Shown one piece after another: positions 22,600 to 63,986 of a DNA stretch of 64,000 nucleotides. This DNA is from Bolinopsis microptera. Its lineage: Eukaryota > Ctenophora > Tentaculata > Lobata > Bolinopsidae. The notes beneath the pieces were generated by a model that had not been told where the DNA came from, did not search any database, and saw only the letters and a list, made by a program, of their open reading frames with translations. Each line of letters begins with the position of its first letter. Position 1 is the first letter of the stretch. The stretch is taken from the NCBI RefSeq assembly GCF_026151205.1, contig NC_087079.1:10964635-11028634 (forward strand). The letters are read 5' to 3'. The position numbers were made by a program, and so were the translations under genes.

Positions 22600-22631
22600 C
22601 CTGATACCCTGTGATTCCTTTACGCAACTCG

Positions 22632-26563: not shown

Positions 26564-27456
26564 CTGTATATGGAACAGATATTTTACGAGTATCACCCGT
26601 TAACTTATTTTAATCTTGTATTAATTCTATTCCGATGATGGGAATTTAAATAGAACGAAATTAAAAAGATTCATATCATCCAGGACAATAAGTTCGTAGA
26701 AGATAATATCAATATTTATGTGAAAACATTTCAACGGATTTTGCTACGGACACTAAAATGAACGCTAGCGCTAGGGCCTCCGCCCTCCAGCGTCCAATTA
26801 ATGTTTGTTCAAATAAGGCCCGGCAAGATAGATTATTCATGCATGCAGTTCATGATTTGGTCTGAGGTATAATGTAAATTGTACAGTGCATCTGTATTGA
26901 TTTACCAGCAGGATTGAGAAATAATAAACGCTTTTGATCAAAACGCAGAATTATATAAATACAGAGCTTTTGGAAGCAAGTATCAATTTTACTGCATGCA
27001 TAATGTTTTTGAAAATGTCTGTACAAATATATTAACTTAAGCAACTTAATTATGTCAAATACTCGTTAACTCAGAACAAGATATTTGGCAACAAATCAGA
27101 AAATGAAACCTGCAAGTCGCACTCAACGTCAAATGAGATTGCAACAGCAAACTTCAAAAATGTCATCTCAGCCCGTAAAAACATAAACTTTAAGTTAAAT
27201 ATCTTTTATAAAATTAAAAGAAAAACATGTACATCCGTAAAAATTCAAATCAGAAATGCGATAAATGGAGTTCACGAAAGAAATAATTACGTTGTCTCTA
27301 AAGGTCGATAAATTTCCGAGCAAAGACCCCTTCCAAACATTAAAACAGTTTTAAATAAAACAACAGGTTAATCAGTAAATCAGTCTCTTCATAACCATTC
27401 TAAACAAGTTTCCACAAAACAAGGTCATCCCTCCCGAGAAATGAATCCTACTTTGC

Positions 27457-27669
27457 TTATCGTTCCCTAGCCCTGTTCCACTTAACGAAAGATTGGGTTC
27501 TGCGAGTTCCTCGATGAAATTGTCGTGGTTCTAGGGATCTCCATTGATTATCTTCAAATCCTCCCATGTCAAGGTCCTGGTTTGAAACCTTGGCGATCTT
27601 CACTTTGACGAACTGTGAGACTTTGTCCCACTTCGTAGACTTGATATCCGAGTTGTCAGACATGGCGTC
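27457..27669 (-). CDS. Espin-like gene, last coding exon
   Basis: The acceptor TTTCTCCAG precedes GAC (phase 0), and the frame runs 70 codons to TAA at 27459-27457. The protein segment starts DAMSDNSDIKSTKWDKVSQF and ends in a basic stretch (FHRGTRRTQSF, then KWNRARER). TKWDKVSQFVKVKI echoes TKWQSFKGKLTEAF in the preceding exon, giving two TKW-headed amphipathic segments. No known domain is recognised. It could also begin at the internal ATG (27663) in a short isoform. Confidence 0.75.
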   Translation of the reverse strand, partial: DAMSDNSDIKSTKWDKVSQFVKVKIAKVSNQDLDMGGFEDNQWRSLEPRQFHRGTRRTQSFVKWNRARER

Positions 27670-30600
27670 CTGGAGAAATTATTAAGTTAGTTTCAATTAT
27701 TAAAACTGAAAGTCGGGCAATTTACCCTCTAAGGGTAAGATTGATTGATGATAATTCTGAATTTATCAAGACATAAACTACATAAAGCAATTCTAGGGAG
27801 TAAAGGATGAAAATAACTTACGTTCAATTCGTTCCGTTTAGATTTGTGGAAAGCCTCCGTTAGCTTCCCTTTGAAAGACTGCCACTTCGTCTTAGGCTGA
27901 AGAAGATTATTATTAATGAAAAATTTCAATTTAATCTCGACAATCTTTCAATGGCAGTTTATCATGCATTAGTTGATCTGGGAAACATGGGAAAGCATCT
28001 ACCACCGAAATAAAACCCACCATTGATTCCTCCAGGACCGGATCATACTGGCCACCTCCCAGTATCTCATCGAGTATATCGCTGAGTCCGGACTCGAACC
28101 CGCTGTCAAAAGTACTCTTACTGTGTCGTTTGAAGGACATGGAGTCGGAACCGTCACGTGATGCAGCAAACTCTCGGTTACACTGGGGGTTAGGTTGTGT
28201 TAAAAGGGATTTGGCAATTTGTAATATATTATCAGGAATCAGGAATAGTTGAGCTTGTTATGTTTGACAATATATTACTTTGCTCCTAAAGTTAATTAAA
28301 CAACTTACTTTGCTTCTAAGATACGCTTGCACGTCCCCACTAGTACATATCGTATTGCTTCTCTTTAGAGGGTGCGACTCAAGGCTGTTTGCGGAGGAGG
28401 ATAAGTTAGGGTCCCGTTTAGGGGACAGCAGGGAGGAGTTCTCAGCTCGGCGGGGCGAGAACAGCCCTGTCTCTTTCCTGATATCGGGGCGGCGGCGCTT
28501 ATCCCGGCGAACTGTCAGGGATCCAACGTACGGGCTAAAGTCCTGTGGAAAACAAGGAGTTAGTAAATCCAGAAGGGACAGTGTGTGATTTTGGAGAATA
28601 TCCGGTCGAGATTTAAATATAAATTTGATATGTGAATCTGCGCTTCAAATGTTTTAAAATGTGATTTGAGATTAGTGTCATTACGTGACGGACTCGTGAG
28701 CAGTGTTAAGTAGTCTTACTCTAGAACGGACTTCGCAGGTTTAATTTAATGTGAGAGTAAGAAGAAATGGGGGAGGGAGGAAATATTGAGAGATTATTGG
28801 ATTGTCAGGATATTTTCAAATCAAATGTTTAGAGTGAGAACTAAACAGCAGGATAAAAACACCACGTCCAACGGACCTTTGGATACAAGATTTTAGTGGG
28901 AGCCACAACAAAATCAGTAGACATCGGACCCAGATGAATCTTATTATCTTCAACATCTTGAACAATTGAGGCAACCAGTTGATCATAATCCTGCTGGCAC
29001 TCGATAGGAACCCGGAACTCGGGACACTCGCTCCCATCATCAGGACACTTGCTTTCAACACTACGACACTCGTCTCCAGTGTCTCGACACTCGATCGTGC
29101 TTGTCCTGTAGTTCCTCTGGATGGTGTTGCAGCTACCCCACAGATTCTCCCTTTCCCACAGGGCTAAAGAGGGTGGTTCACTCTTCTCCTCCTGGAAATC
29201 AAACATGGCATCCACCCTCCTCCAAGTCGATTCGTAATCAGATTCGTCGCTATAAATCACCATGACAACTTGCTGTGAAAACTATATTAGACAAGGGTGA
29301 CCGATAAACTCAGCTCTAACAAAACCAGGATAACAACTAAACTTGTTCAATTAGGTTATACCCGGTACACAGGCCACCTCAAAGATACCGCGGTGAAAGG
29401 GGGCCAGGGAGGTAAGTAGGCATTGGCTCTGTTTCCAGGGTGATGTGTAACACGTGGAGGCGCGTGACATGTCACGTGTCATGTACCGTGGGAGAAATGC
29501 TGGTTTTTTATTGGCTGTTAGACAAGCCAGAAGGAAGGAGGGAGGGAGGGTTTGGCGGGAAGAAGCAATTACTATTTCGCAGGACCGGAGACAGTTGACT
29601 TACTCTGCCGTCCAGCCTTTACTTTTATATTTAATGCCAGTAAACATGAACATTGTATACTGTATAACCAGTCTAAAGTATGCGTGCAGATGTTTTTAAC
29701 TGGAAGCAACGTGACAATTGGAATAAAGGCTAAACTGGGCCACATTGTTCAAGACAACACTGTTCCCATGGCTGCTCTCTTCCGTGTTGATAATTTATTT
29801 GTAGACTTCTCACAGACCAAAGTAATAATTACTGTTTCTCAGCACCTAACAGTGTTAAGCAAGTCACAGGTATATAACCAGTATTATTTGTAGATTAGTT
29901 CCTGCCAAATTTAGTAATTTTAGAGCCCTCCCAACTCCCAATTAGGAAAATTAGGGCCTCGCAAGCTAGGGTCTACTACTCAGGGCCTCGCTACTTCAAC
30001 CTCTCAAGAAACCCCTCCAACAACAAACAAACAAACAATTACTGTAACAAAACCAGTGACCAGTATTAAACAAATCAACAAGCACAGGCCACACAACAAC
30101 ATGAGTTGCCACCCAACAGTCATTAAATCATCAGCCAGGATTTGCCCGCGGTTCACAGAATAGAACGCGGTTCATAGTTTCCACTAGCACCTAATTTGAA
30201 CCTACCGTGCTGTGTTGTGTTGCCCGTGATTTACTCCAACCAGACTCCTGGAACTCCATGATAAACTGGGAGAGGAGGACGGGATGACAACCGGAAGTAA
30301 GACGAAAGTTTAGACTCACTACCCTAACTTTGTTGCTGTGAGATGTCACAGTAATCATTGCGGACGAGTTCGCTCTGAGCTTGGCTGTTTGTTCGAGAAT
30401 ATTCGGTCGTTTGTAAATGTTGGTCTGGGTATTAAATCGTCTGTGGTTATGGAAAGTGCTGGATCGAATGTGTATGTCGGACGGTTCGTAAGTTTTAGAT
30501 CGGTCCACAGCGCAAATGTAAGATCGCCTACGATGATCAAAATAAGAGGTTCCAAAAGCCTTGTGTCGACCTTGAGAGGTGGAAATGGACCGGTATTCAA

Positions 30601-33600
30601 TATTCATATTTGCTCATTCGTTTGTTAAAGCAGTCATATCGGTCACATCCTCCGAGTAAGTCAGTTCGTTTGTGACGTCTGTTGTCACATATGATGTCCG
30701 TCAATTTTTGTCATTCTACACATCGTCATCAAGTATTATAAGCTTCAAAATAGTCTCACATTAATCGGAATTAAAATCACATCAGTGAAGTAAACGAAAG
30801 TCTTAATTGGTTGCATGTGCCCCAATAAATTTATCACAAGAACTGTATGGCTATCACAAACACGAAATACATGCCAAAGTAATCTTACATATCATGGATA
30901 AAACTAGAGGTATTTAGAAAGCAAACGCAAAGACGTTGCTTACAAATTGCACTATAAAATGTAGGCGGAGATCACAAGATATGAGTAGAGCGCATTTTAA
31001 ACGGTCCTAATTGGGAATTTTCCGGGCTCATTTGAGCAAGTATTATCAGAGAAAGTTGATAGGCTGGCCGGCCTATTTTCGACACCCGATCATTGATTAA
31101 AAGCACAAATTGGCAAATGGCAGCTCATAGTATTATGCGGCAATCGGAATAAATCTATTGTACGATTATACTATATTATGTAAAGCAACAGTTAGTATCA
31201 AAAGTAATGGTTTTGCTAAATTTAGCACCTAACTATCGAAGGAAATAGTTTTCATGTTAACACTTAACAATGGTTGAATAACAAGACTTGTTTTCTCACC
31301 TAACCTTACACAAGCAAGACAAACAAACAATGTGGTCTTGTTTACCCAGAACTAACACCCTCAACCCCCGGAGTAAGAAGAATAACGTAATGGTTCATAT
31401 TAAAGCCCCTCAACCAAGCAGCCTGCTGTGTCATGCAACCACTCAATATGCAAACAGCTGATTTCGTGGGTTCATTGCCACGCTACCATATTAGGAGATA
31501 TTCCTATCGAGAAACTAAAAGCGCTCTAATATTAGCTGTCGGGAACTACGGCGGAACAGCAGATTACTTCGATAAAATTACAGGTAAAATAGCTCCCAAC
31601 CTGTCTGAGGCAAGATGATAGGGTTCTCTCAGGATTGTGGGATGATTTGCCGAGTTGAGCCCTGTTGTAGGATTGAGTACGTGTAGGATAGCATGAGTGC
31701 CTACGTGTAGGATAGGTGGTGTTGAGACTGGAAGTAGGACGGGTAGGTGTGTTGGTGGATAGCTGGGTGTGTTTAGGAGCTAGGATGACGTCCAGACGGA
31801 GTGTGGAGTTCACGTCCACTGTCCGTACTAGACGGGGTTTCTGTAGAGCGGTGGGGAGGGAGCATCTTCTCTTTACCATCGTGTGTAAAACAAGGTGGAA
31901 CAAACAACAGAAACTAAACTAGTAGAGACAAAGTACGATATGCGAGTAGTTAGTGTGTTTTACGAAACCAAATATCTGTCAAATGAAGCAAGGTGGAACT
32001 GGTAAATTGAGGTTCCTTGAGGGGTATTATATGACCCTGGGGGGACAACGCAGCTGAAATCTAATCCAATATAGTTAAAACACGTGAGAATATTCCACGT
32101 GATCCAATCAGTGGTTGCTATGGTATCACGTGATGATCACACGTGGGATAAATGGCTAATCACGTGACCCACCTAACCAATCAGGGAAGGTTTGGCTCTG
32201 GAAGTGCTTATCAGAGCATGTCGATGTAGTGGACTGGATTGAGTGACAAGTGTAATGTTAAGAATGTAGATTGAACTAAATACTTGGCGCGACAAGGCAC
32301 CTTGTGGTATCTGTACAAAGTCATGTGGTACTTCGTATTCGGTGTCATGATGAACACGGAGATAAATAGATACTGATTGGAAACAGATCACCATATAACA
32401 AGCATTAGCTTACAAAGATTGAAACAATTAGACAATACCTATTGTGTTTCTGAAGAGTCAGAAACTTTTTTTGACTCTGACAGCACACAATAAATTGACC
32501 TATGTAAAGCTCTAGAAGGACCAACGTATCTAACACGTCAATTAATCAGCTAATAGGAACACTCTTTATTACTCCCAACTAACTGACCAGCAATAACCTC
32601 ACCTTGGAATCAGCTAGGAGAATATCCAAGAGCCACAAGTTACTGCCGATACTCATAAGACACAGGAAGAACTATAATAATAGGCTACACTACGCAACTA
32701 TATTAATAGCTAGACAGATCTACAAGCGTAGTAAGTCACGTGACAGATCCACAGTATAAACTTCAGGAAGCTTCTAGCAGTTTACACACAAACACAGGTG
32801 AAACTCTGATAAGTTTTATCAGGAATATCATTTGAAGGGTCGGTAGAGGGTAAGGAAACACCCCAGATTATACTGATTAATCGTTTTAAAAAAGGCTGTG
32901 ATATGCTATATTAAGAGTATGAGGCTGCGGTTGTAGGTTGGGAGGAAGTCGTTAAGACATTAGGTGATTGTGGTCGTAGGTTTGCACGCTGCAGGAGTAC
33001 AGCACGCTGCAGGAGTATGAAATAGTACGCTGCAGACTGAATCATCAGGTTTATAATTTAGGCAAATTCAAAGAAGGAATATATTGATAAGTTACAATTT
33101 GTCAATAATAAACGGACTAACAATAAACGGGCTAGTAGAGCAAATCTACGCTAAAATCTGTCAAATGACTCACTGTAAAATTGGGGAAGAGAAGCTGGCA
33201 GTCCTTGTCCATTCTAAACACTTTATGTTTGGATTCTCTCCCTCTGTAATTCCTCGCTCCTTCGGAACCAGAACTAACTTTACTTGTTCTGGACGAACAG
33301 CAACTTTTGGAGCGAGTCAGACTCCTATCTTTGGGAGGGATGGTGTTGTAGTCGCTGGAGCTGGCCCAGGTCCTTTTAAATTTATTTGGTTTCAAGGGTA
33401 TTTGCCGTTTCATTTGATGGTGGTTTGACATGTCGTTTGATTTGCGATTGATTGGCCGTTTCAGCTGATTTTTCCTCGGAAAATCGGTGCTCTTCGACCT
33501 CTGACAGTTTCCAACATTTTCCACTATGTGAGACTTTTTGAAAAATTCATAAGCGGAAACTGGTCGCGATCTTGCACCAGATCTTAAGTTTTCTTTTCCT

Positions 33601-36600
33601 TTATAATTTCTGATCACAGCCTTTTCATCGAGTTCCATGAGCTTGGGAAAGTCTGACATTGCTTCAGTGTATTTGACTTGTGAGAACGGAGCAGGGCCCC
33701 GTTTAGGGAAGGGTTTTGAAGGTAATCTCAGATAATCCAGCGCAGAATAACCCAAATTAGGACTCAGATAGCTTCTTTTACAGTTCACATACACTGGATA
33801 CCGACCAGTGTTCTGAACAGGTTCAGGAGAGTTGAAGACTGAGTCACACGGGGTGCTATCTGACAGCTTCACAGTACTGCCATCACTGGATAGTGGTGTC
33901 TCTAGGCTGGGGCAGAGGGTGATATCAGGGAGACCACGCCTCTTTACAGCTGTCTTGGGAGGCACCCTTTTATTAGACTCGGAACTGGGAGCTGGAGAGA
34001 CGATATCAAGATGTCGTGGGGGTGAGGTGGTGAAGGATACTGGGGACGCTCTGTCATCAGAGTCTGGTAGCAGTTTATCAGGGTCCGGGAACAGTTTATC
34101 AGGATCTGGTAGCACCTCAGGAGGGTGTGGTGTGGTTATCACAACACCGGGTGATTCCCCTCTCACAGCACCACCACAAGGTGTTATGACACCTTTAGTT
34201 ACACGCACCTCACCCGGTGACAACCAAGGTGTGCGTCTTTTATCTAACGTTCCCTGCTCGCTTCTTCCTCCATTTAATGCAACCATTAACTCATAGCTCT
34301 TCCTCCTCGTCCTTCTACTGGATCCAGCAGAAATGTTAGAGTCTCTATTGGATCGGTTGGAGTCTCTACAGGAGCCAGCTTCTACACTTGCTGAACTGGA
34401 ACAAGCAGTAGACTTAACCCTAGCTTCGGGTAGTGGTGTGAGCTGAGACTCAGGTAGTGGTATAGAGTCCTCAGTCAAGTAATAACTGTGAGATGTGTAG
34501 AAGTCCAGATATCGTTTCTTTAGAGCGATCACATAGCCCTCTGCGTCATTAATAGTAGATTCTTGATGATTAGCCATCTGTTGTATTCTAGGGTAAGCAA
34601 AAATCATACAAATTGAAAAACAACCACGCAAAAACAGGCTCGATTAACAAGTTCGTCACTAGCAGCAGCTATCATGCCGGAGATAGAAATATTCTCAAAA
34701 AGGTAAGCGAGAATTGGGGATCTAAGGCTTCCGAACAGGTGATGTAGGGCTTCTAGCTGTACTAACAGGTTAATTTGAAACGAGCAAGTGATGTAAAACA
34801 CAGGGCCAAAACTTCATTAAGTCATTACAATATCAACGACAGTCCCAGAATTACCAGCCAGGGTGCATGTTAGCGCATTATTTCTGCAAAATAGTCAGGT
34901 TTTAATGAGGAGGCATAACAATGTGCATAGTGCAGTTGTTTGGTAATTTGGTCACTAATATGTCACTAATTGGTTAAAAACTGGGTGGTCAAACAAGCTA
35001 TGTTTTTTGTGCTCTTCTCACGGGCTTGCTAATGAGATTTGTCTCTTATCTCGTTAGTGCTGAAAGAATGTATTTTTGGTATGATGTCACTTTACGGCCA
35101 AGGAGCCCAAACAAAAGCAACTACAACTCGAGACTTATGAACAACCTATCTCCAAACTGATGCATTAAACAGTGTTTACAGACAGATATCGGTGTTACAA
35201 AAACAAAGGGAGACCCACAACAGCAGACATCCTGATATAGCACTATTGTTAGTACTATGTTGTACATAGGACTATCTATACAGACAATTAAAATTGTAAA
35301 CAAGTGAAAGCAAAACGCGAGAATGGTCTAAATATTGTAATATCGGGAGACTTTTGGAGATTCGCGGCACACAGCAGTTTCATGGGCGGGAGCAAACATC
35401 TGCCAACATTACTTTACACAACAATACATTCCCGCCCTCGGAATGCGGGAAGTAGGAATGTCCGGATGAAATCTTACGAGCAGGGAAAGTTACTTTTACA
35501 GGATATGTCGACCTTCATTAAAGCAAGTTAGAGCAGCAGGACTCAAATAACAAATCAAGTTGCAAGTGCCAGGAATGCGTTAAATACGGGGAGGATTTGT
35601 GGATGGTGGTTTTTGATGAAAGGTGAGATAATACGACAGGAAACATGGGCACTAAGATCACTGGCAAGTAGACAACTGTGATCTATTGTAAACTCACAAC
35701 TGTGAATACAGTCTAAAACAACAAATTATGTAAATAACTTCTCTACCGGCACCTTTATTACTATTTGTTAAGCTTCCAGCATTTTGTCGTTAATAACCAA
35801 ATAAAGTAAAGAAGGGTAAGAGTAAACTTTGGCAAATAGTTATTGCACAATCCGTAAAAAAAGAAGAAAGAACGCCAACCTCATTTTAGTTACGACATAT
35901 CATATACCATATGTTGTAATTTACATATACCACTCTAATGATATCATGTAAATCATGAAATGTGGAACTTTAACTACAGCTTTACGTCACTGATAGTGGA
36001 GCGGCGATGCACAGCTGGCAGGACAGCTACAAAGCACGACCTCACAACAGCAGACTGTAGTGAGTGATAATGACTAATGAGTACCACATGTTACCCTCAT
36101 TATCAGATAGTAGTCACCTGGACTGAGCTACACCGGCTACATATCAGTAATCTCTCTTCTTCTTCTTCTTTATCTTCTCTCCAGAACAGGTGTCTCAAAA
36201 ACCTCCACATTTCTCAGCAAGCGGTAAACGACAAGAGCTTGATTTAGCTGTTCAATCAGACATTCAACAATAACACATAAAACAACGAAAAATGCTAGAA
36301 ATTGAATTCTGCAAAGCTTTGCATAAAAAATCTTGAGAAAATATGAAGGAGTTGCTCGCAAGCACTACGGGAGGTGTGAAAACTTCCAGATCACGTGGTA
36401 CCGGAAAAACAGTCACGTGTCCTGAAGTACTGTCTTTGTATCATGATGACGTCATCATATGGACCCACTGTGGCTAGAAACAGTGGATTTACAGCTTAGT
36501 AAGGAGTGCAGTAAGGAGGGAGAAGAAGGGCGGAGGAGTATGGAGCACGTAGTCAGTTGAGGTGAGGTGAATAGCAAGGTGGTGCATGATTATTGGTAAC

Positions 36601-39600
36601 TCTGCTCACTTGTGGCGGGAAATCTATAATAAGCGTTTTCAAATTTCATGGTCATCATCTGTGAAAATTATGTGAAGTGAAGATTATGTAATGTATAAAA
36701 ACTAATAAAATGTTTCTTACCTCGATGAGCTGAAGTCTCTTCCGCTCCTCTTCCAGGACTCGCAGCACCTCAGTTTGGTTGTACATCTGTGCAACTATCT
36801 CTGGGGTTCTACACTCGTTATCTTCCGAAGTTAACGGAACACCGCTGAAAAAGAAGCCAGTTTAGAGAAGGTATTTCATGAATTATTATTTGGGGTTAAA
36901 CATTGGACTTTATCGAGTTATCGGTAAATATTGCCGCTGTCTCAATGGAGTAGTCGGTAACTCGGTGAGGCGATTTGATTTGTCAACTCTCAAAATTTCC
37001 ATCGCAAACAAGAGCTCACATTAACGACTTCAGCATTACTTATTTCCATGAAGTCGTTATAAGAACAACAAATTATGGGTAAAAGCTGCGGTTTTTAAAA
37101 CCCCCGTTCCTGGAAATGATATTAGTAAATCATTTGACGCAAGTCTCCAACGGATTTAAGGAGCATGCAAATAATAACCCATATTTTAAAACACTAACCC
37201 CGGGTCCATATTACGACACTTTACTAACCACTACAATGGTAACAATACGATCTATCTAGTAGATAGAGTTTAGAGAGAACACACAACAGAGAGAGAGAGA
37301 GAGAGAGCGAGATTGCTCACTAGTAATGAGCTCAACTCACAAGCTACACAGAGCTCAGACTGAGAATTAGACCTCTCTCTCTCTATGTACTCCACACACA
37401 CGCTCAACCTCAATATACTCCCTGGAGCCTCCTCCTCCGCCTTTCCATACTGATTAATTAGGTCACGTGACATATGACATATCACCATGACAATACGTCG
37501 CTGTCACCATGGTTACGACGATTTGTTGCCAGGGATATGAGTATTTGTTGGATTTATGGTAAGTTTATTTCAATGTTGTAAATTAATGAGCTTCAAGTCG
37601 TGCATGATTGAGCGGGCCACATGCTGCGCTCGATGAACTGATTATTGAGAACTGCGGACAACTCCATGTAGCAATTTCTATAATGAACTCTGGAGCTTCA
37701 TGAAGCTTAAAGGTAAGACTTACAGCGTTCGAAGAGCATGGACGAAGAAGTCAGGTACTAAAACTAGCGTGAACAAGATATTGTAAGAAACACAGCAGCA
37801 GAGTGAACTTATGTGCAAGGGATAGAACTACAAGAAGTCCAGGTACCCTTACACAAGAACAGCTGTGCCTTCTGTAATCTTAACGATTAGATTCGTTAGG
37901 CTAGTAAATTCTAGCTGATTAGAGAGATCAACCAATCACATGATGTAGTACGGGTCACGTGTTGGCAGACCGCCAATAGGAGCTGGAGACGCCACGAGTT
38001 GAGGGTCATCCAGCTGCCAACTTAAATTGTGTTATGGTGTTAGCTACGCATAAAAATAGACTTAATAAATTTATTGGTGTATTATGTTAACAATATCGTG
38101 GCGATCATTTATGAGTGACTTATGCACTTCAAGGTATCAGTTATTGTTATTATTTTCTTAAACTTGTGACGTCATATTATTATCGGTGGGATTACAGCGA
38201 ATTCGTTACATTTGCAGCTAAATCTCATCTTAGATGTTTAACAGATTTTCTACGGTCGAATACACTTGGCGTCATCTGCATTTAAAATAATCCAGAACTC
38301 TGAAGTTTGCCGTGTGAAGAACAACAATTGTTAATCTACGGACATTGGACAAAAAGACGTTTCCCATCAATAAATTTAATTTTTGAACAGAATGGTGCGT
38401 CAATCTTACCTATCAAGACTGACTGTTTCCGCTTCCCAAGGTTTACAGCATCTAGGAGAAGAAATTGAACTATCGTTGCCAATAGACTCGATCCCCGCAC
38501 TGTCATTGGCTATGGACACGTCACGTGATTCAACAACAGAGTTTTGATTGGAGGTTGTGTTACTAGGGTAACGGAGTCTGCATAAGGATTCCTCGCTACC
38601 AGGCAGATTCTCTGACATGAATTTTTCGTCTAAAAGTTTGGAGAGTTGTTGTAGAGATTCCGAAATATCCTTTGACCTAGGGTTGGAAAGCTGGAAATTC
38701 TGTGACATGGAATGTTTTAAAACAGGCCGACTCTGGGATCCAGGCCTTTGGAGCTGGTGGAAATTCTGAGAAGTTGACCGCTGGATAATATTCTTTGGAC
38801 GGGCTAAAAGTTGGGAGTTGGATCGCCTCAAGTCCTGGAAACTGTGAGAGCTTGTTAATCTAGCAAGCCCATGGTCAACATCTCTCAACGACTCCTCCAT
38901 ATGCCTCAGATTCTCCACAGACTCGTAGTACGAAGGAGGAGGACACTCTTTTCTGGCACACGGGTCGAACCCTGGGGTCCAACACTCCGAGTAGTCCGGG
39001 TCAACTCTACGGGATGCTTGCGGAGTAACGCTAGTTCTGAGATCACGGTAAGAGGAGGTGGTAGCTACTGGTCCTCTGATTACCTCAACTGTGTGGCGTG
39101 GTGTGGTACCCACTGTAGTGGAGACTGGTCGAGGGGTTTGGTAGTCTATTGAGAGGGAACTAGGTCGAGGTCGGGGAAGTAAGGACAGTCTTAGAGCACC
39201 CATGTTCTCGTAGTGGGAGGGTGTGGGTTGAAGGCGAAGTTTCACGTTCTCGTAGGAACAGGTCGGGTCTTTACCTCGGAAATCATCAATGTTCTGATAT
39301 GTGTGATGGTCGCTTTTCTCAGATCTGTTTTCGTAGAGTGGTTCTTTGTCACAAAATAATTCGTCGTCTGATATCGCTGTTGAAACGCTGGAGATTGACA
39401 GCAAACTGTTTCGGAAATCAGAGGAAATGGTTGAGGAGGAACTGAACCGCCTGGTGTAGAAGACACTGGAATCATCATCCTCACCATCGGTGTAGTCTCT
39501 GATGACAGCTGCTTGGTAGGGTGGGATGACACCATCACAGCATGAGCTGGCATCGCTTCCACTTTCGTAAGAAGAGGAGGAGGAGGAGGAGTAGTGGGAT

Positions 39601-54600: not shown

Positions 54601-57600
54601 GAAAAGTTTCAAAATGGAACATTGGAACAAAAAGGGGAGTCGTCTGTAAACCCTTTGTGTTGCGCTGCGACCCTTTGGGTGTTGGATTGTTTTGGAATTA
54701 ACAGAGCAGGGTTTTTATCAACGTTCACTGGAAGGATGCTGCAGTTTGAGAAAATTTGACATTTCCCAACAAATCAACTGCCAAATTATCCTCTTTAAAC
54801 ACAGAACCCCCCCCCCCCCCCCCCTCACAGCATATTCCCACTGTCTTTAAAAGCAGCTGTCAGTTATACTGGGTGTATTAAATGTTTGCACTATCGTGTT
54901 ACCGAGTGGCGACTGTTTAGGTAAAAGTGTGTTGTATTAAAGTGACGGCAACTGCTATAATTGGAATGGAATGACTGATTTTACATGGGAATTTGGGGAG
55001 CGGAGCAAATTTCTGAGTGGTGAGTCATATACTAGTATGATAATAATCGTAAGGAGCGACGATTTTTTTAAAACAATCCATATCGGATAAAACAAAGATC
55101 CAACCCACCAAGACAAGCATACTGGGTTCTTAAACTCTACTACATCCCCTAGAAACTAACATGACAAACATAAGACGCATACATACCACATTATATATAT
55201 AGAACATGACATAACCACAAAAACCACACATTATAGCGCAGAATTATAACATTAAAATCAAAACCATGAAAACCATTCAAAAAACCACGAACCTTCTAAC
55301 GAAAGCCCGCACCAGAGTAACATGTCCCAGTTCACAAGCTAGATGGAGCGAAGTTGCTCCCATGTCGTCCACCTCCCGACCACACAGCTTAGTTTGCTTT
55401 AGTAACCACCCAACCACTGCTGTGCTGTTGTACTGGGTTGCTGGAGAGAGAGAGGGTTAGATTCAACACTCTCTTGCATATTATATATAGTACGTCAGAT
55501 TTCTTGAAAATGTATAATTTGTTAACATTGGAGTTAAACAAATTACTATAGACAGTTGGCACTGGACTGGACACATCACCCCAAACTTTGGACACGAGAA
55601 AATCAACCAGTGAAACCCGGTACATACCAATATGAAGCGGAGTGTTTCCCACATAGTCATGCGCACCGACGGGACACCCACCACTTGCCACTAGTCTCAG
55701 ACAGTGTAGATGGTTAAATTGGCTGGCAACGTGCGCTCCATTCTGTGACTTGTAGTTAGTCGCTAGAATATCCGCCGCCGTGTGTCGTATTATGTACTTT
55801 AGACAGTCGTACTGTCCGTGTTGAACTGTAGGTAGGTGGATTGTTTAGGAAAGTTGAGTCACTGTTGTGAAATCAGCTCTGAGAAGTCTGTGGTGAAATG
55901 CATGCAAGCACATGGTTTATGAATACGCGCGCGGTTTAAAAGCCGCGCATACTAAATGTTGACGGTATGCGCAATACTTTTCACATAAAATGTTCAGCTG
56001 CGTGCTACAAATAACTATGAAATTGCCGCGGAAATTTATCCTCTGGTAGGTTTTGAACGGACAGCTGTTAAACTGAGGAAATTGAATTAACACAGTCGCT
56101 TGACACAGGTTATCCTTGAACTCTCGCTTGGAAAGTATCCAAGTTGTTTACGAGCACGCCTTTAATTTAAACTCGCGGTTAGCAAGATGTAGAAAATTCC
56201 ATTTACCATTTCAATATAATTTCATCATTTACGACCATCAAATTATCTGACACCATTATACGGATGATTTAACACCAGATACGTTTGATACGATTCCCAC
56301 CATTTGGATAGAAGTAAGCCCTGTTGATACTTCAGACAAGGGCTGATCAGGGGTCACATATGGTAAATTTTTATCCGTGTATTAGAGATATTGATGAAAT
56401 AGCGTTATTGATGTGATAAAGATACTGATAAGTTATTATAATAAGTTGTCTTTGTTAAACTACTGAACCTTGACAGTATTATACCGATCGATAAAATTCC
56501 TCTTAAAAGTCTGATCGTTTCTATAAGATATAAAGGTATAAATATAACTCTATATGTATCTAGCTATTGTCTCCAGTATTATATACCAAATATAAATAGG
56601 CGAATTTTAACTTTCATTAGCTCTGGTTATTTTAACAACATTTCGGTTTTGTATTTGGAAGAGAGGTTAGTGGTGTTACGGCTAGGGTTTTTAAAACGGT
56701 TACGGTACAGAAAGAGTAGGAAGTTACTTTCGTGACAGGAGGTTTTGTTAGTCTATGGACAAATAATGTTCGCCAAATAAGGAAATTTCGATGTGGCGTT
56801 ACTTTCATAATATAGCTTCTAACGTAAGTTTACCTGCTATAATCCAAAAATTGCACTTTTTTCATCGATCTATGGCCTTAGGGATGTACAAAACAATTTC
56901 GGGAATAGGGAACATGACCTCACTTTCTCTTTCGTTATCCACAAGCAGTGACTCATACTAATTCATTTGGGAGTCGACTGTAAAATTTAAGTATGCACAG
57001 TGCACACATTGCACAGTGCACAATTTAGGCACGTCAGGTACTTAAACCAACTCACAAACATGCGACGGAATTAGTTCCTACATTATATTATATTTATATT
57101 AACTTACATTACATAATATAATATATTAACTAACTCTAATGAGTCACTAAACAATACAACTATATAATATCCCTCTACTTCTTGCCTTGCATTGGCCACA
57201 GACAAATGACTAGAGCACAGTTTAAGTATTGTACAGTACATCCCAGTACATTATTGGCCCCACTGGGCTGGATCACGACTGTATTCACTGCTACAGTTTA
57301 TACTTTATATCTCTTCTCTCCTCTTCATAGCCCCGCCCGCCTGGATCCCCCTTTGTTGAAGAGAGCAAAACAACAAATTATTACTTCTTCGCATTGTAAG
57401 GTAAAACAATAGAGTCTGGTTGCGCGGAAAGATTCTGATAGTGTGAAGGTGGGAACTATTGTCTTCTCAGATATTAGATTGGGAAATTTGTAATGAATTC
57501 GTCAGAGCTGCAAACTCCTTGCAAATACTGCACACTTACTGGGGCCAGTTCTGCAGTATGTAACGGCCTAATATGATGACATATGCTAGAGACTTGGCAG

Positions 57601-60600: not shown

Positions 60601-63600
60601 TATTCAAGACACTAATTGAACTAACTTGTTAATGAGTCCAGCTAACAAACCCACCCCAAACAGTTCCAAAATAGTTCTCATTTTATACCTACACAGAGAT
60701 TACAAGAAATCAAATATTTCAAACTTATTTTACTGCTATCAATTATTTTTTCCCGATCCATGACTCGTGCCGAAGGCACAAAAGAGTCAAGGACAAGGGT
60801 TAGCGATCGAGGTTTTTTTTGTATATGGTAGCTTTGCGACCGTGCGTGCGTGCGTGCGTGCTTACGTGCCTGCGAGCACTGTTATCGCCCACGTGACTAC
60901 CTGCGCAAAGTTATTTTGCGTGATAATCTGAATTATATAATTGTTGGCGCGCGGCGCTGAACCAACCAAGTACATTATTAATTTCATCATGTACGTATCT
61001 CAATAGGCACTAATTGATAGCAATAGCATATTATTATTATTTTGAGTCAGTATTACTATTTTGCACAGATCCGTGTCAGGTTGCATAAACAATAAACATA
61101 TGGTTACATAGAAGTATACACGATTTTCAAATTCAATATAGAATTATATTAACTGGGCGGCGCTCGGCAGTCGGCATGTCACTTCGCCATATTTGCATGT
61201 TTATATAAACAGTAAAGACTGGGCCGTCCCCAGGTTGTATGGAATATGATAAATACGCCATCACGGATCGGGAAATTGAGCGGCCATCCACAAAAGAAAA
61301 TCGGCCGCATTTCTTGTTGTTATAATAGATTCATCTTTTACACAAAGGGTCACAGACCAGTATGAGTCTATAATCTCTTCCTTCATCCAAAACTCTGTTT
61401 TTTATTACATGTTACATGATCAGATAGAAGTCATATCAGCAGATTCTTGGACTCAAAAAGTTAAAATAATAGTCAAGGTTACAATGTCTTGGCTCTGTTA
61501 TACACTTAAACTATCTTGCTTAGAATTCGAGTCGTCTAAGAATTAATTAAATATGAACTCCACCCCGTAGTTAAGTCCATATAGGTTCAAACCCAAATTA
61601 GCAGGTATCCTTCGCCAAATATGGACATTCCCCGACGTTTTTGTAGGCAACTACGTAAAAGACTCATGATACTGTCACATATTTTACATTTAGGACTTTA
61701 GGTTATTTATGTATGTACGTATAATGAACTTATCACATCTCAGAGTTAAACATTATCAGCGTCACCTGACCTGATAAACAATCCAATAAGTAGAGATAAC
61801 ACCTTATCAATACCTTATCAATACCCCACAACCAGTCATGTCCCCATAATAACAGTTAACAATTTAACGTGTCCCCTTGACATGTCCATATAAAGTCAGC
61901 AGCACAGCGGCCAGTGGGGATAGCAGGGCTAGCGGACTGTAGCTGGGGTTGTCAACACATCCTGTGTTGAGTGCAATAACTTGACTTCAACTGCTGAGCT
62001 ATATATCTGCTGTACACCCGAGCACTGGCTTATATAAGATCATTCGTCAGAGTCAGGGGTCACGTGATCATGGTAACCACGTGATCTTATAGATCTAACA
62101 CGTGGGCGTGAGGTGAGAGCGGAACTAAAGACACCACACCATTGGGAACCAGCCACGTGATATACACAAATCAATGACTCGAACAGATAGCTCAACTCAG
62201 TACTTGATACACACCGATACACCCATAAATACAGGTTAAATGCATTAGTCCGGCTAGCTATGGTTTGAGAGGATATTGTGCCGTTGTTGTTGACACGATG
62301 GCAACACACTGACACATATTGTTACTGGTTTGACAGACACCCTGTTTAAAGTCTCGTCGCAAACCCCCGCTGAAGCCCTTTAAATACGGACCGTCAAAGA
62401 CAGTTCAAATTATTAGCGTGGTCATGGCTGTGGCTTATGCTTTATGTGCATAAATAATGTTGGTGTGTGACTAAATATAATACATGTTACTAATTTTTGT
62501 ACACTCGGGAAAGTTAGTTTTTGCTCCCAGTACAATGGTGTTCGACCCAATTATCAGATCAAGCTGAGCAAGCTGCTGAAGGTCCTGATAACACATTTGG
62601 TTCCATGGTGTGGTAGTAGTAGCTATGCTTCACTTGGTCCAGATTAGTTTTACTAAGTAATTAGATTAGTTTAGCTTAGTTGAAAATAATGATCCTAATT
62701 CTAATCCTATCCCAATTCACATACCTCAATTTTAACCTTAATCTCCTAAACATGATATTAAAATAACCACAAGAGGCTTAAAACTGAGTAAAGGAGCAGG
62801 GTTACTTATCGGAACAGTGTTAGTTTATCTTGGTAGGAGACGCCCCGCCATGCACGTAATTGTAGCTATTTAGAGAGAAATATCGAGACATAACGAATCC
62901 ATATTATTCCGGAGAATCATGAGAATGATAAATTCTTTTAATTAATTAATTAAATTCCCGCCTGACAGGCTGTAACAGTTCGGAACTGTTAAAATGAGAG
63001 TTAACACTAACGGCTAGCTTGATAGTCTCAAGTGTTTTCCTTGTTATGATTATATTCCACGCTGTGAGAAAATTTGCGAAGAGAACAGATTGCAGATAAT
63101 AAAAGTTTTAAATCCAAAGCTTGATTAATAAATAATAGCTGAATTCGATGTTGAATTCAATGCTGCAATACATCGGACAACATAGTACATTGATTAGAAT
63201 AGACGGGAGTGTTTTTGCCACATGGTGGACGAATTAGAGGCAGGCTTATACTCTTATAGTACGCGCCGCTCAGCTTATATGTTGTTTTTACCGGACTTAT
63301 ATTTACTACCCGGCTAGTGGTATGTATAATATATTGGAAACTTACTATGTTAATAAGTCACTAAGTCGCTTGTAAACTTGGCTACTATTACTAAGCAACT
63401 AAGCATCTTACTAGTAACTAAGTAACTAGTAGTAACTAAGTAACTAGTAGTAACTAAGTTTTAATAAACACAGTACACACCCTAGATAAGATAACGAGGT
63501 ATTTACCTGCCATAAGGAGAGGTGTCATTCCTTTCTCGTCCTGTAAAAGTGAGTGTCAACAATAAGTCACATCTTCTAGAACACAATATCTTATAACTTT

Positions 63601-63986
63601 ATAAATACCATCACACATTGGATATTGTTAGAGTTTACTAAAACTACCAGAATTCAGTGTTGATCTCCCGGAGAACCAATAATCCGGGAAAATTAAAACG
63701 AGAAAAAGAGGTGTGAGGCGGTTCTAACTAAATAGCTGACGGTCTATGGCGGTCAATGGCGGCTGCCTCGCGCCGCTGTTCCTGAAGAAGCCAACAAGAA
63801 ACGGAATCTTAATCCGCTGAGACAAAACTCGCTACAAAAGTACTTTACAGAAACCGGCAAAGTAATGAAGGAAATGCACCAACCTCCTGATCAAGGCTGT
63901 GTCTGTCGTATTTGTAGATCCAACTCAATAGATCTACGTGTCCATGTTCTGCGGCGTAGTGGGCTGCCACACTCCCACATTTAGAT
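27457..63986 (-). CDS. Large multi-exon ankyrin-repeat gene, espin-like (overall span, 5' end outside window)
   Basis: Twelve exons with matching splice sites and phases join into one minus-strand reading frame that enters from beyond 64000. One junction, between 55301 and 39667, is unresolved. The N-terminal part is an ankyrin array (exons at 63.9, 63.5, 55.8 and 55.4 kb). The rest is long, low-complexity, Ser/Pro/Tyr-rich and basic sequence. From memory of vertebrate espin, the array matches in order (SGGC before a GNTPLHIA repeat, VVGWLL, DDMGA..LHLA). The start of the 1.26-kb exon, MSVGVRPLDF then a Ser run, resembles the sequence just after espin's ankyrin domain. Espins bundle actin in microvilli and stereocilia. 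No WH2 or C-terminal actin-bundling module was recognised, so actin bundling is not claimed. A different ankyrin scaffold is possible. Confidence 0.75.
27822..27896 (-). CDS. Espin-like gene, 75-nt exon
   Basis: This exon has acceptor TCTTCTTCAG and the perfect donor GTAAGT. It is 25 codons, phase 0 at both ends, so it can be skipped without a frame change. It encodes PKTKWQSFKGKLTEAFHKSK followed by RNELN, a basic amphipathic helix candidate that could bind actin, membrane or calmodulin; this is inference only. Confidence 0.78.
28021..28182 (-). CDS. Espin-like gene, 162-nt exon
   Basis: The acceptor is ACCCCCAG and the donor GTGGGT. Both ends are phase 0, giving 54 codons. It starts CNREFAASRDGSDSM and continues through SFKRHSKSTFDSGFESGLSD to YDPVLEESM. 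STFDSGFESGLSD resembles a phosphodegron-like DSGxxS motif (DSGFES), which family knowledge links to beta-TrCP binding; whether it works here is unknown. The open frame runs on past the donor to 27931, so a weaker alternative donor cannot be excluded. Confidence 0.72.
28309..28542 (-). CDS. Espin-like gene, 234-nt exon
   Basis: The acceptor TTTTCCACAG and the perfect donor GTAAGT frame 78 codons, phase 0 at both ends. The segment begins DFSPYVGSLTVRRDKRRRPD, a strongly basic stretch. It continues with Ser/Pro-rich sequence (FSPRRAENSSLLSPKRD) and ends DVQAYLRSK. It is locally GC-rich against AT-rich introns, as the other exons are. No domain is recognised. Confidence 0.78.
28877..29272 (-). 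CDS. Espin-like gene, 396-nt exon
   Basis: The acceptor is TTTTCACAG and the donor GTCCGT, a weak site, but it joins in frame to the next exon. The exon has 132 codons, phase 0 at both ends. It encodes an acidic segment, QVVMVIYSDESDYESTWRRV, and a Cys-bearing stretch with repeated C-D-G-E-C spacing (ECRDTGDECRSVESKCPDDG). It ends APTKILYPK. An internal ATG (29263) could start a short isoform. No domain is recognised. Confidence 0.72.
30320..30607 (-). CDS. Candidate alternative or extra exon of the espin-like gene
   Basis: A 96-codon frame starts at an ATG (30607) and ends at a strong donor, GTGAGT, in phase 0. It would therefore splice in frame to the 29272 exon. It begins MNIEYRSISTSQGRHKAFGT and is Ser/Thr/Arg/Tyr-rich, as the flanking exons are. 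I see no good acceptor upstream, so an alternative first exon with its own promoter is more likely than a cassette exon. An overlapping frame on the same strand (30600-30355) is also open, so coding status is unproven. Confidence 0.4.
31601..31903 (-). CDS. Candidate alternative or cassette exon of the espin-like gene
   Basis: An open frame from ATG 31903, or from a possible AG acceptor near 31877 after a T-rich tract, reaches a GTTGGG donor in phase 0, which suits the downstream exons. The protein is basic and Thr/Arg-rich (KRRCSLPTALQKPRLVRT; PTRPTSSLNTTYPTRRHS). The donor is weak and composition is the main support. A run of CACGTG sites lies upstream at 32081-32166, consistent with a promoter for an alternative first exon. 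Confidence 0.35.
32081..32166. promoter_or_regulatory. Cluster of five CACGTG (E-box/M-box) sites with CCAAT motifs
   Basis: CACGTG occurs at 32081, 32096, 32127, 32140 and 32161, most in TCACGTGA or CACGTGG context. CCAATCA lies at 32104 and 32177. CACGTG is bound by bHLH-zip factors (MITF/TFE, USF, MYC families); GTCACGTGAC matches the CLEAR/M-box form. It could serve an internal minus-strand promoter. Function is inferred from the motifs only. Confidence 0.4.
33174..34577 (-). CDS. Espin-like gene, 1404-nt exon, disordered basic region
   Basis: This exon encodes 468 residues and is phase 0 at both ends. Its acceptor is AATACAACAG and its strong donor GTGAGT falls after FPNFT; the open frame continues only to 33132. 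The first 40 residues look structured (NDAEGYVIALKKRYLDFYTS). The remainder is Ser/Pro/Arg-rich with a short tandem repeat LPDPDKLFPDPDKLLPDSDD. It also has SPPRHLDIVSPAPSS, a conserved-looking SRPVSAYEFFKKSH and many basic Ser sites (RRKSYE, QRSKSTD, LTRSKSCC) suited to basophilic kinases and 14-3-3 binding. No catalytic domain is seen. It is probably a long scaffold region. Confidence 0.8.
36721..36844 (-). CDS. Espin-like gene, 124-nt exon, charged helix
   Basis: The acceptor TTCTTTTTCAG and donor GTAAGA are both good. The exon starts with one base that completes the split codon from 38410 and ends in phase 0. It encodes GVPLTSEDNECRTPEIVAQM, then YNQTEVLRVLEEERKRLQLIE. The second half is a clear amphipathic, coiled-coil-like helix. 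The neat match of a two-base donor phase with this one-base start is strong support for the junction. Confidence 0.85.
37270..37500. repeat. (GA)n tract and purine/pyrimidine-biased segment in an intron
   Basis: A GAGAGA run at about 37290-37312 and CTCTCTCTCT near 37373-37383 flank a minus-strand open frame (37488-37270) of low protein quality. GTCACGTGAC at 37461-37470 and a downstream TATGACATATC give it a promoter-like look, but no transcript start can be assigned. Confidence 0.4.
38410..39667 (-). CDS. Espin-like gene, 1258-nt exon with tyrosine-motif repeats
   Basis: The strong acceptor (TTTTCTTGACTCTCCAG) starts two bases before a codon, and the donor GTAAGA leaves two bases that pair with the next exon. 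Numbering from MSVGVRPLDF as 1, a Ser run (25-31) is followed by five spaced tyrosine motifs: YENR (110), YQNI (122), YENV (137), YENM (151) and YESV (246), the first four in Y-x-N form. PPSY (242-245) is a PPxY form. Residues 272-325 repeat basic-Ser phrases (RRSNSQ, QRSTSQNF, KHSMSQNF). The opening MSVGVRPLDF plus Ser run resembles espin just after its ankyrin domain, from memory. No enzyme domain is seen; it is probably a phospho-regulated scaffold. Confidence 0.85.
41951..42069 (+). CDS. Candidate internal exon of an unidentified + strand gene
   Basis: The acceptor CTGAACTGTTCAG and the strong donor GTGAGT frame 119 nt, starting after two bases of a codon and ending in phase 0. The peptide includes EGGIPGSPGGIQYHYFEFGA and RSRYSRYSEFSLGEEYDGW. 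It is protein-like and tyrosine-rich, while the other strand has stops. I do not recognise it. It lies antisense inside the large intron of the espin-like gene, with possible partners at 45.6 and 48.6 kb. Confidence 0.45.
42451..42480. repeat. Pair of ACGTCACGTGACA palindromic sites
   Basis: ACGTCACGTGACA occurs twice about 20 bases apart, each combining a CRE-like ACGTCA with the CACGTG core. A further TCACGTGACA lies at about 42586. These belong to the locus-wide CACGTG series. Confidence 0.5.
44730..44920. other. GC-rich island, possible exon of either strand
   Basis: About 190 bases of high GC in AT-rich surroundings. On + the frame reads GERRLNTRAPVGPGGDPVAG, then NNGLGRRSSTVQAGGQAGG, with a stop at about 44922. 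On minus a very good acceptor (AGCCTGCCCTCCAG) precedes a Pro/Leu-rich frame that is also open. Internal GGTGACCCAG occurs twice and GGGCCCC twice. Coding on one strand is likely, but I cannot choose. Confidence 0.35.
45412..45480 (+). repeat. Imperfect AGAGTA-type purine-rich tandem repeat
   Basis: GAGTACAGAGTATAGAGTACAGAGTA, broken into short units, is followed by two longer copies of AGAGTAGAAGAGGA-like sequence. This is simple-sequence DNA. Confidence 0.7.
45593..45696 (-). CDS. Low-confidence exon candidate of the espin-like gene
   Basis: The acceptor ACGACTACAG is poor in pyrimidines and the donor is GTAGGG. The 104 nt enters after two codon bases and leaves one base, exactly what the 39667 exon needs. 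The peptide reads SLLSTLEATIVVHIGADDPH, then QGAVSPSLRSNSSE. It overlaps the + strand candidate 45599-45635, which has better splice sites, so at most one is likely real. Confidence 0.25.
45599..45635 (+). CDS. Candidate 37-nt microexon of the unidentified + strand gene
   Basis: An excellent pyrimidine tract and acceptor (TTCCCCCTACATTCAG) and a good donor (GTGAGG) frame a peptide, LFERNEGDTAP, with two codon bases at each end. The two-base end matches an exon starting with one base at 48557, which would give an in-frame join. It is very short, so chance is a real alternative. Confidence 0.3.
46460..47525. mobile_element. 1066-bp terminal-inverted-repeat element (non-autonomous DNA transposon)
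   Basis: The left end CCTTAGTTCCCAAAAATTTG (46460-46479) and the right end, read from 47525 backward, CCTTAATTCCCAAAAATTTG, match at 19 of 20 bases. Each is flanked outward by TA, the target duplication typical of Tc1/mariner-type insertion. Subterminal AAATTTGGGC recurs several times at both ends. No transposase frame exists; the open frame at 47346-47546 is mostly terminal-repeat sequence. This fits a MITE-like or internally deleted element. Which transposase family mobilises it is inference. Confidence 0.8.
48557..48840 (+). CDS. Candidate exon of the unidentified + strand gene
   Basis: The frame from an acceptor at 48556 (AGACTAGACAG, poor tract) to a GTAACA donor is 284 nt. Without the donor, the frame continues to a stop at 48893-48895 and this could be the last coding exon. 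The peptide is clearly protein-like: AVSEDGRVQLSGTARTTPLP, then MKGTLLDLAKNKPDTESQLN and SKRALTKTRSDSQDN, rich in Lys/Arg/Ser/Thr with a charged helix. The reverse strand gives only a hydrophobic shadow. I do not recognise a family. Confidence 0.45.
49050..52180. other. Intronic or intergenic DNA, no recognised feature
   Basis: Frames are short and of poor protein quality. I saw no domain, no convincing exon pair and no larger repeat. A + frame at 49050-49253 and a minus frame at 51535-51311 were inspected and not supported. Confidence 0.5.
52181..52234 (+). repeat. 24-base tandem repeat, 2 copies plus a partial
   Basis: GTAAAGGAGCCTGCAGGCAG followed by CCGT occurs at 52181-52204 and 52205-52228; a third copy breaks down after GTAAAG. 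CCTGCAGG inside the unit is an 8-base palindrome. Confidence 0.85.
52900..53070 (+). CDS. Small ORF of 56 codons, unrecognised
   Basis: From ATG 52900 to TAG 53070 the peptide is MVQYRWYDRFQQFSSVFPEI, then SHAKWPVSPTNRDIKQFIKW, then a Pro-rich end (AEPRPAYPKIQVLK). It is rich in aromatic residues and reads like a small folded or mitochondrial-type protein, but I recognise no family. The frame is open upstream to 52855. It could be a microprotein gene, a processed fragment or chance. Confidence 0.3.
   Translation: MVQYRWYDRFQQFSSVFPEISHAKWPVSPTNRDIKQFIKWYIAEPRPAYPKIQVLK
53720..53925 (+). promoter_or_regulatory. Candidate + strand promoter with TATA box and CACGTG sites
   Basis: TATAAAA at 53892-53898 is preceded by CACGTG sites at about 53720, 53760 and 53803 and an inverted CCAAT (ATTGG) near 53744. 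A start about 30 bases after the TATA box would fall near 53925. An ATG at about 54143 followed by GGTAATT could be a first coding exon of only a few codons. No gene body is confirmed. GTATAAAAGCTAC is shared with 25140-25152. Confidence 0.35.
54808..54825. repeat. Poly(C) run
   Basis: About 18 consecutive C's end in CTCACAG. Long C homopolymers are rare in this AT-rich DNA and prone to length errors in sequencing. Confidence 0.85.
55301..55440 (-). CDS. Espin-like gene, ankyrin-repeat exon
   Basis: The strong acceptor CCCTCTCTCTCTCCAG supplies two bases that complete the split Ala codon from the previous exon, giving GNTPLHIA-TQYNSTAVVGWLL across the junction. It then runs REVDDMGATSLHLACELGHV, a well-formed ankyrin repeat. 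The donor is taken as GTTAGA after LVRAF (phase 0); GTGCGG just before it is another option. The next exon is not found. Confidence 0.8.
55628..55825 (-). CDS. Espin-like gene, 198-nt ankyrin-repeat exon
   Basis: The acceptor CACCTACCTACAG and donor GTATGT frame 65 codons plus split codons at both ends. It completes one ankyrin repeat (QHGQYDCLKYIIRHTAADIL), carries a second (NGAHVASQFNHLHCLRLVAS, then GGC) and starts a third (YVGNTPLHI). The TPLH-type turn and the LLxxG helix spacing are standard for ankyrin repeats. The SGGC/GNTPLHIA order resembles espin repeats 3-4. Confidence 0.88.
57594..57660 (+). repeat. Flanking repeat, left copy, beside the minisatellite
   Basis: TTGGCAGAG, ACATG, TAATCAG and CATTAACGTG occur here in order and again at 58163-58230 with about the same spacing. 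The two diverged direct copies bracket the 15-base minisatellite. Confidence 0.7.
57655..58008 (+). repeat. Minisatellite, 15-base unit with 12- and 13-base variants
   Basis: ACAGTCACAGACTAT repeats about a dozen times with near identity from 57670 to 57850, followed by shorter ACAGTCACAGACT variants to 58008. Because the main unit is divisible by three, long open frames exist on both strands (TVTDY repeats on +, VCDCI on -); these are by-products, not evidence for a protein. Confidence 0.92.
58163..58230 (+). repeat. Flanking repeat, right copy, beside the minisatellite
   Basis: Diverged direct copy of 57594-57660: TTGGCAGAG, ACATG, TAATCAG, CATTAACGTG in the same order. Confidence 0.7.
58446..58520 (+). 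repeat. 25-base imperfect tandem repeat, 3 copies
   Basis: ACACAATTTG starts units at 58446, 58471 and 58496, each followed by a variable G/T-rich half (CACATGCGGT, TACGTGTGGT, CAGGTGTGTT). Confidence 0.85.
59176..59219. repeat. Two exact 22-base copies of a palindromic CACGTGACGTCACGTG unit
   Basis: Each unit is CTTAT followed by CACGTGACGTCACGTG, a perfect 16-base palindrome that stacks two CACGTG cores around a CRE-like ACGT core. A further GTCACGTGAC lies 13 bases after the array. This is the densest of the CACGTG clusters in the locus. Confidence 0.9.
60022..60108 (+). repeat. AT-rich tandem duplication, about 45-base unit
   Basis: ATATTTTATATTTCTATATT followed by AAATATAAGT (or GAATATAAGT) and TTATATTATA occurs twice. 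Each copy is partly self-complementary. Confidence 0.7.
60761..60789. repeat. Bulged hairpin TGACTCGTGCC / GGCAC-GAGTCA
   Basis: TGACTC-GTGCC pairs with GGCAC and, after a 4-base AAAA bulge, GAGTCA, with a GAA loop. There is no gene context for it. Confidence 0.55.
60841..60862. repeat. (GCGT)n microsatellite
   Basis: Five consecutive GCGT-type units, followed by degenerate ACGTGCCTGCG. Confidence 0.85.
62060..62160. promoter_or_regulatory. CACGTG cluster (four sites)
   Basis: TCACGTGATCATGGTAACCA, then CACGTGATC, CACGTGGGCG and CCACGTGATA occur within about 100 bases. It is motif-level evidence only. Confidence 0.35.
63409..63460 (+). repeat. 18-base tandem repeat, about 3 copies
   Basis: AGTAACTAAGTAACTAGT repeats head to tail with near identity. 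Related CTAAG/CTAGT words precede it from 63361, and similar ACTAGGT words occur at 44290-44350. Confidence 0.75.
63507..63540 (-). CDS. Espin-like gene, 34-nt ankyrin microexon
   Basis: The acceptor CACTTTTACAG and donor GTAAAT frame DEKGMTPLLMA plus one base. Joined to 55825 this becomes DEKGMTPLLMA-V-QHGQYD, an unbroken ankyrin repeat. The short length is offset by exact phase agreement on both sides. Confidence 0.85.
63884..63986 (-). CDS. Espin-like gene, most upstream exon in the window (ankyrin repeat)
   Basis: The acceptor CACTTCTCTCCCAG is followed by one codon base, then SKCGSVAAHYAAEHGHVDLL, SWIYKYDRHSLDQE, a typical ankyrin repeat. The donor GTTGGT leaves phase 0 and joins in frame to 63540. 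The gene's start codon, promoter and any earlier repeats lie beyond the right edge. Confidence 0.85.

Follow-up and report, generated by a model that had tools for sequence, protein, structure and literature searches.

Espins bind and bundle F-actin and bind myosin III, and espin 1 (ESPN), which has ankyrin repeats, WH2, an actin-bundling module and proline-rich runs, carries autoinhibition within one molecule. PMC3953818 describes espins as coming in size classes from one gene. The actin-binding peptide xAB maps to NIYMQTKNKLRHV, with NIY, K and LRHV being required (PMC3953818). In ESPNL, ankyrin repeats are joined to a tail; PMC10046292 presents it as lacking the bundling domain, and PMC3953818 attributes to it a piece of 27 residues that shares 74% identity with the beginning of the bundling module. 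Drosophila forked has a short ankyrin stack, given in PMC4758956 as five repeats that match espin repeats 5-9, and is placed at 35-39% identity to espins in PMC10046292. Since espin homologues are also reported from sponges, an invertebrate espin relative would in itself not be new (PMC4758956, PMC10046292, PMC4942974).

The locus described here lies in a window of 64,000 nucleotides, the whole stretch of Bolinopsis microptera DNA that was analyzed. It shares ankyrin repeats with espin 1 and ESPNL, a tail with ESPNL and a short ankyrin stack with forked; ankyrin-1 and ankyrin-2 occupy top rows of PDB searches with its ankyrin block, a similarity of generic repeats. A large exon, E5, holds weak xAB-like and SVQPLNF-like sequences as possible counterparts of those in espin 1. 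Unlike espin 1, this gene yielded no WH2, bundling module or proline-rich runs, and its xAB-like exon is probably an alternative to the ankyrin exons rather than a segment that follows them. Unlike ESPNL, it gave no module-start piece when the window was searched by tblastn with the espin module, and, in contrast to forked, it showed no comparable similarity to the espin comparison sequence outside the ankyrin block. We hold with moderate confidence that this would be one animal gene with two alternative N-termini sharing one tail. Its product is probably an ankyrin-repeat scaffold and possibly a diverged espin or ESPNL relative; any tie to actin is one that we infer.

Exon structure of the proposed minus-strand gene

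Between 63986 and 27457 on the minus strand, 12 exons can be named (Table 1), and judging from the sequence we take exons A to E12 to be real. The gene extends past the window edge, since exon A is already in phase 2 at 63986, and further ankyrin repeats may lie upstream. The chain A-D-E6-E7-E12 comprises 1002 open codons with a stop at 27457. Splice sites were scored by a simple weight matrix of the metazoan consensus, and because sites were chosen partly to keep the frame, the in-frame joins are only partly independent evidence.

Table 1. Exons of the proposed minus-strand gene and the xAB-like segment within E5, in window coordinates
Feature	Position	Strand	Phase in	Phase out	Acceptor	Donor	Content
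Exon A	63884..63986	-	2	0			first ankyrin repeat in window (SKCGSVAAHYAAEHGHVDLLSWIYKYDRHSLDQE)
Exon B	63507..63540	-		1	5.9	6.1	DEKGMTPLLMA
Exon C	55628..55825	-		1	2.4	4.0	ankyrin repeats 2-4 in part
Exon D	55293..55440	-		2	7.2	3.7	ankyrin repeats 4-5
Exon E5	38410..39667	-	1	2	8.4	6.3	large, Ser-rich
xAB-like YYESVENLRHM	38898..38930	-					inside E5
Exon E6	36721..36844	-	2	0			end of ankyrin repeat 5, repeat 6, then EEERKRLQLIE
Exon E7	33174..34577	-					468-aa tail piece; start uncertain
Exon E8	28877..29272	-					tail; start 29272 or 29191, both in frame
Exon E9	28309..28542	-			7.6	5.8	tail
Exon E10	28021..28182	-			1.6 (weak)	5.6	tail
Exon E11	27822..27896	-			4.3	5.1	tail; in gene-finder chain at penalty 9, not 12
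Exon E12	27457..27669	-			5.9		terminal, stop, basic

The original prediction named two split-codon junctions as restoring perfect ankyrin repeats; both proved exact and do restore ankyrin repeats. At the first, ...CTTATGGCAG/gtaaat (63507) joins acag/TTCAACACGG (55825), splitting a codon between exons B and C, with a Pfam Ank match on the exon C frame; at the second, ...CATATTG/gtatgt (55628) joins ccag/CAACCC (55440). These junctions yield MAVQHGQYDCLKYIIRH and PLHIATQYNSTAVVGWLL. Its further statement, that 12 exons join in frame apart from one gap, stands for the exons and junctions, the gap probably being mostly a product of wrong exon order. Six ankyrin repeats are visible in the window (exons A-D and E6), in the tandem 33-residue arrangement of a generic ankyrin-repeat protein. 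Pfam Ank_2 matches the joined exons A-D at E 6e-25 and reaches 6.5e-27 after the addition of E6 and the start of E7; N-terminal ankyrin repeats like those of espin are present, but are unspecific to espin.

Exon D is probably spliced directly to E6, which would close the gap noted earlier after 55.3 kb. D ends mid-repeat at 55293 in phase 2 and E6 starts in phase 2 with (S)GVPLTSEDNECRTPEIVAQMYNQTEVLRVLEEERKRLQLIE; together they form one repeat of exactly 33 residues, followed by another repeat. With an ankyrin matrix the E6 acceptor scores 2.0 and ranks first among 319 AG acceptors that lie from 55.2 to 27.5 kb and are followed by at least 30 open codons; the next scores -10.8, and the mean is -38.8 (sd 9.5). 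The best register of 33 for E6 is the one that the D/E6 join demands (2.0; next -18.6). A looser test (20 open codons, prefix maxima) gave E6 rank 2 of 508, a 23-codon stretch at 40630 coming first. Among the 859 phase-2 donors upstream of E6, that of D ranks first (23.7; next 2.7), with D's own repeat contributing most of this score, and the E5 donor ranks 45th. Adding E6 and the start of E7 raised the Pfam scores of Ank_4 (65.4 to 73.2 bits), Ank_2 (88.1 to 94.4) and Ank_5 (57.6 to 58.5) and lowered those of Ank (75.4 to 74.1) and Ank_3 (65.5 to 64.3). The espin match did not gain from E6, passing from 99.2 bits (row 19) to 93.5 bits (row 33, with the start of E7 added as well) in the PDB search and from 93.4 to 92.2 bits when compared locally with the espin sequence. 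Against the D/E6 join is the 18.4-kb intron that it implies. E6 has a codon score of 7.6, though it was outside the training set of the codon model. By splice phases and the ankyrin register of D/E6, the order first proposed (ankyrin exons, then the exon at 39.7 kb, then that at 36.8 kb) is probably wrong.

A small gene-finder was used for exon chaining, with a codon model trained on E5, E7, E8, E9, E10 and E12, whose own codon scores are thereby biased upward. It returned 31 exons at penalty 9 and 12 at penalty 12. The best chain at penalty 12 reached 180.4 on the minus strand vs 22.6 on the plus strand over the same stretch, a control biased by training on minus-strand exons and a chain that differs from the one adopted here. 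Exons A, C and E11 are missing from the penalty-12 chain, and its D exon ends at 55313. It connects D with E5 through 48716-48671 and sets E5 before E6, which counts against the D/E6 join; it also starts E7 at 34442 and includes extra exons at 31840-31601 and 30265-30206 between E7 and E8. These two extra exons may be part of the gene. We prefer the adopted chain because of the ankyrin-register test and the confirmed split-codon junctions. D has a stronger alternative donor (5.1) at 55313, in phase 0, and the candidate starts of E7 are 34577 (acceptor 1.8, phase 0), 34587 (4.4, phase 2) and 34442 (3.1, the gene-finder choice).

Domain searches of the tail returned little. A Pfam read-through of 27301-39700 and 40300-55298 in three minus frames gave no family at E 1; the same read-through was silent on the E6 half repeat, and is thus insensitive to half repeats and could miss very diverged motifs. 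Among the pieces searched with Pfam, no domain other than ankyrin repeats exceeded its cutoff. E7 had no Pfam match and four PDB matches (best E 0.19), neither E5 nor the C-terminal piece matched the PDB at E 1, and Rfam gave nothing at gathering scores. POB3_N on the terminal exon E12 (E 0.0035 and 0.022, under its cutoff) is doubtful, the structure model lending it no support but being too weak to decide against it; this single-sequence AlphaFold model has two helices at low confidence (mean pLDDT 65.9, pTM 0.27). Within coding exon E7, a 21-bp tandem repeat at 34056-34114 encodes LPDPDKLFPDPDKLLPD.

A candidate alternative start in E5

The incoming phase that E5 needs is 1, and where D ends, the donors with positive scores (55322, 55313 and 55293) are in phases 0, 0 and 2; on these splice phases, an order in which E5 connects D to E6 was rejected. 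None of 89 candidates was convincing as a single exon bridging D to E5 (best sum 14.1 vs 12.0 and 11.1 under two control phase settings), and Pfam read-through and the single-bridge scan found no convincing exon in the 15.6 kb between them. D and E5 share the out phase, 2, that E6 requires of alternative partners. The E5 acceptor is among the strongest, with 44 of 3724 minus-strand acceptors scoring above 6, and an ATG lies 5 bases past it, at 39662. The coding score of E5 is the highest of the 10 exons scored (83.5), E5 having been in the training set. Given the phases and the ATG, E5 probably serves as an alternative first coding exon, preceded by an untranslated leader, though it may be part of a separate nested gene.

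In the two-start model that we favor, the long product would consist of the ankyrin stack (A-D and E6) and then about 800 residues without recognizable domains. A second product would probably start at the E5 ATG behind an untranslated leader, through putative use of an alternative promoter. This start would swap the first five visible repeats for about 417 residues that are rich in Ser and carry Y-[EQ]-N motifs. The protein would likely serve as a cytoplasmic scaffold, the ankyrin groove holding one partner and the tail or the E5 segment, in a presumed docking role, holding others.

The Y[EQ]N motifs of E5 are YENR, YQNI, YENV and YENM, a total of four that was reached in 0 of 20000 shuffles (mean 0.07), and YE[NS][VM] followed by LR after 1-2 residues occurs three times, both patterns having been chosen after reading E5. 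This suggests that E5 holds an internally repeated docking segment. Y-[EQ]-N recalls SH2-docking sites of the pYxN type.

Espin-like features and rival readings

A rather unlikely reading, compatible with the two-start model, is that of a diverged espin/ESPNL-like gene in which the espin middle region would lie in E5 and the bundling module and WH2 would have been lost or replaced. Hints specific to espin are confined to E5 and are leads, not proof. SVGVRPLDF, the xAB-like PSYYESVENLRHM and an ARB-like stretch with STSQNFHQL follow one another there in espin order, and the spacing of PSYYESVENLRHM is as in published xAB. Of the eight required xAB residues, however, only Y, L, R and H are identical; V is conservatively replaced by M, and N, I and K differ. 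Y.{6}LRH[VILM], a pattern picked after the match was seen, has a single match over all six frames of the window (shuffle P 0.0004 in E5). By BLOSUM62 the xAB-like 13-mer falls outside the top 6 of 58442, and the richness of E5 in Y-E-x-x-LR repeats raises the chance of such a match. Alignment of the xAB-ARB region with the espin comparison sequence gave p 0.019 and 0.012 at gap 11/1 (0.013 when blocks of three were shuffled) and 0.003 (6/1), 0.004 (8/0.5) and 0.002 (8/1) at other gap settings; in the controls (E5 reversed, and E7 and the C-terminal piece each in both directions) p was 0.08-0.99. SVGVRPLDF at the start of E5 resembles VSVQPLNF of espin at p 0.02 in the first 60 residues, but at 0.11-0.13 against the whole of E5. 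Furthermore, espin order would place E5 after the ankyrin exons, where its phase does not fit.

The ankyrin block cannot choose a family, because espin and ankyrin-1/-2 score about alike (best single stretch: espin 51.2, ankyrin-2 50.4 and ankyrin-1 49.6 bits); the comparison sequences of espin and synphilin-1 are approximate. Ankyrins and designed repeats stood ahead of espin in the PDB search, and many of these are longer chains in which more stretches matched. The best espin stretch was 9-155 on 9-156; the stretch of 3-191 on 139-326, obtained once E6 was joined, favors the espin reading, but local comparison with the espin sequence found the N-terminal register best both with and without E6. 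BLAST of the block against espin gave two nearly equal registers (65.5 and 64.7 bits). The espin-type N-terminus with a novel long tail that had been proposed is supported as an ankyrin part with a long tail in which no WH2 or bundling module was found; its espin type is not supported, the block matching ankyrin-1/-2 about as well.

The earlier remark that no WH2 or actin-bundling module was recognised was borne out by Pfam read-through, tblastn and pattern scan; of the 39.7-55.3 kb for which a profile check had been suggested, 40300-55298 gave no Pfam family at E 1 in three minus frames. For WH2, Pfam had no match at E 1 in the minus frames of 27301-39700 and 40300-55298 (the human espin comparison sequence gives 24.2 bits), and a loose pattern matched seven times in six frames of the window, with no match in the named exons. 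The espin bundling module had no tblastn match in the window at E 10, whether or not low-complexity sequence was filtered; its pattern scan was empty, and alignment to E5, E7 and the C-terminal piece gave p 0.26-0.84. A strongly diverged bundling module may be present. There was no run of six prolines in three minus frames, and when the tails of espin and synphilin were compared with the window by tblastn, the hits remained at chance level (best E 2.2 with the low-complexity filter, 2.7 without). These absences weigh against the espin reading and would leave at most a distant kinship, though ESPNL too is without a bundling domain, according to PMC10046292. The gene cannot yet show how espins gained actin bundling, a bearing conditionally suggested for it, because the espin lead is weak and lies outside the ankyrin block, and because the exon order then proposed is probably wrong.

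It is tempting to speculate on a narrower version, which we consider improbable: an espin-related gene that would begin either with the ankyrin stack or with the xAB-like, tyrosine-motif-rich segment, as mutually exclusive first exons with a shared tail that lacks a bundling module. If this were true, autoinhibition would be split between two products, or would have evolved only once other lineages had acquired the bundling module. More generally, if the E5 signal were true homology, a bundling-free espin relative would help to date the ankyrin stack, xAB, WH2 and the bundling module. Otherwise the locus would add another ankyrin-repeat scaffold gene to those of animals, and its main use would lie in the corrected gene model.

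An unlikely explanation of the same exons is that they belong to at least two genes on the minus strand, one with the ankyrin exons A-D, which might end elsewhere, and another with the tail exons E5 to E12. In its favor, the 15.6 kb that separate D from E5 yielded no convincing exon, and the ankyrin exons have low codon scores against the tail-trained model (A 0.8, B 0.2, C -3.9, D 0.4). Against it, E6 completes an ankyrin repeat exactly in register, and its phase-0 end allows splicing to E7. A synphilin-1 relative, suggested by a local resemblance (WLL, EVD) of the ankyrin block to synphilin-1, is highly improbable and was rejected: BLAST gave it 41.6 bits vs 65.9 for espin, and PF16700, the SNCAIP alpha-synuclein-binding domain of synphilin-1, is absent from the joined A-D, E6 and start of E7 and from the C-terminal piece, whereas the synphilin-1 comparison sequence scores 80 bits. 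The single gene with two starts remains our preferred reading.

Other features of the window

Matches to RVT_1 occur at 196-1416 on the plus strand (clear) and at 15395-15676 and 20839-22674 on the minus strand (both under the cutoff), the last with endonuclease domains too; by their sequence, we regard all three as remnants of non-LTR type retrotransposons. A rhodopsin-type GPCR-like fragment lies at 10917-11156 on the plus strand (7tm_1 E 0.0023, below its cutoff). In the intron between exons B and C, a 15-bp minisatellite of about 23 copies extends over 57668-57989.
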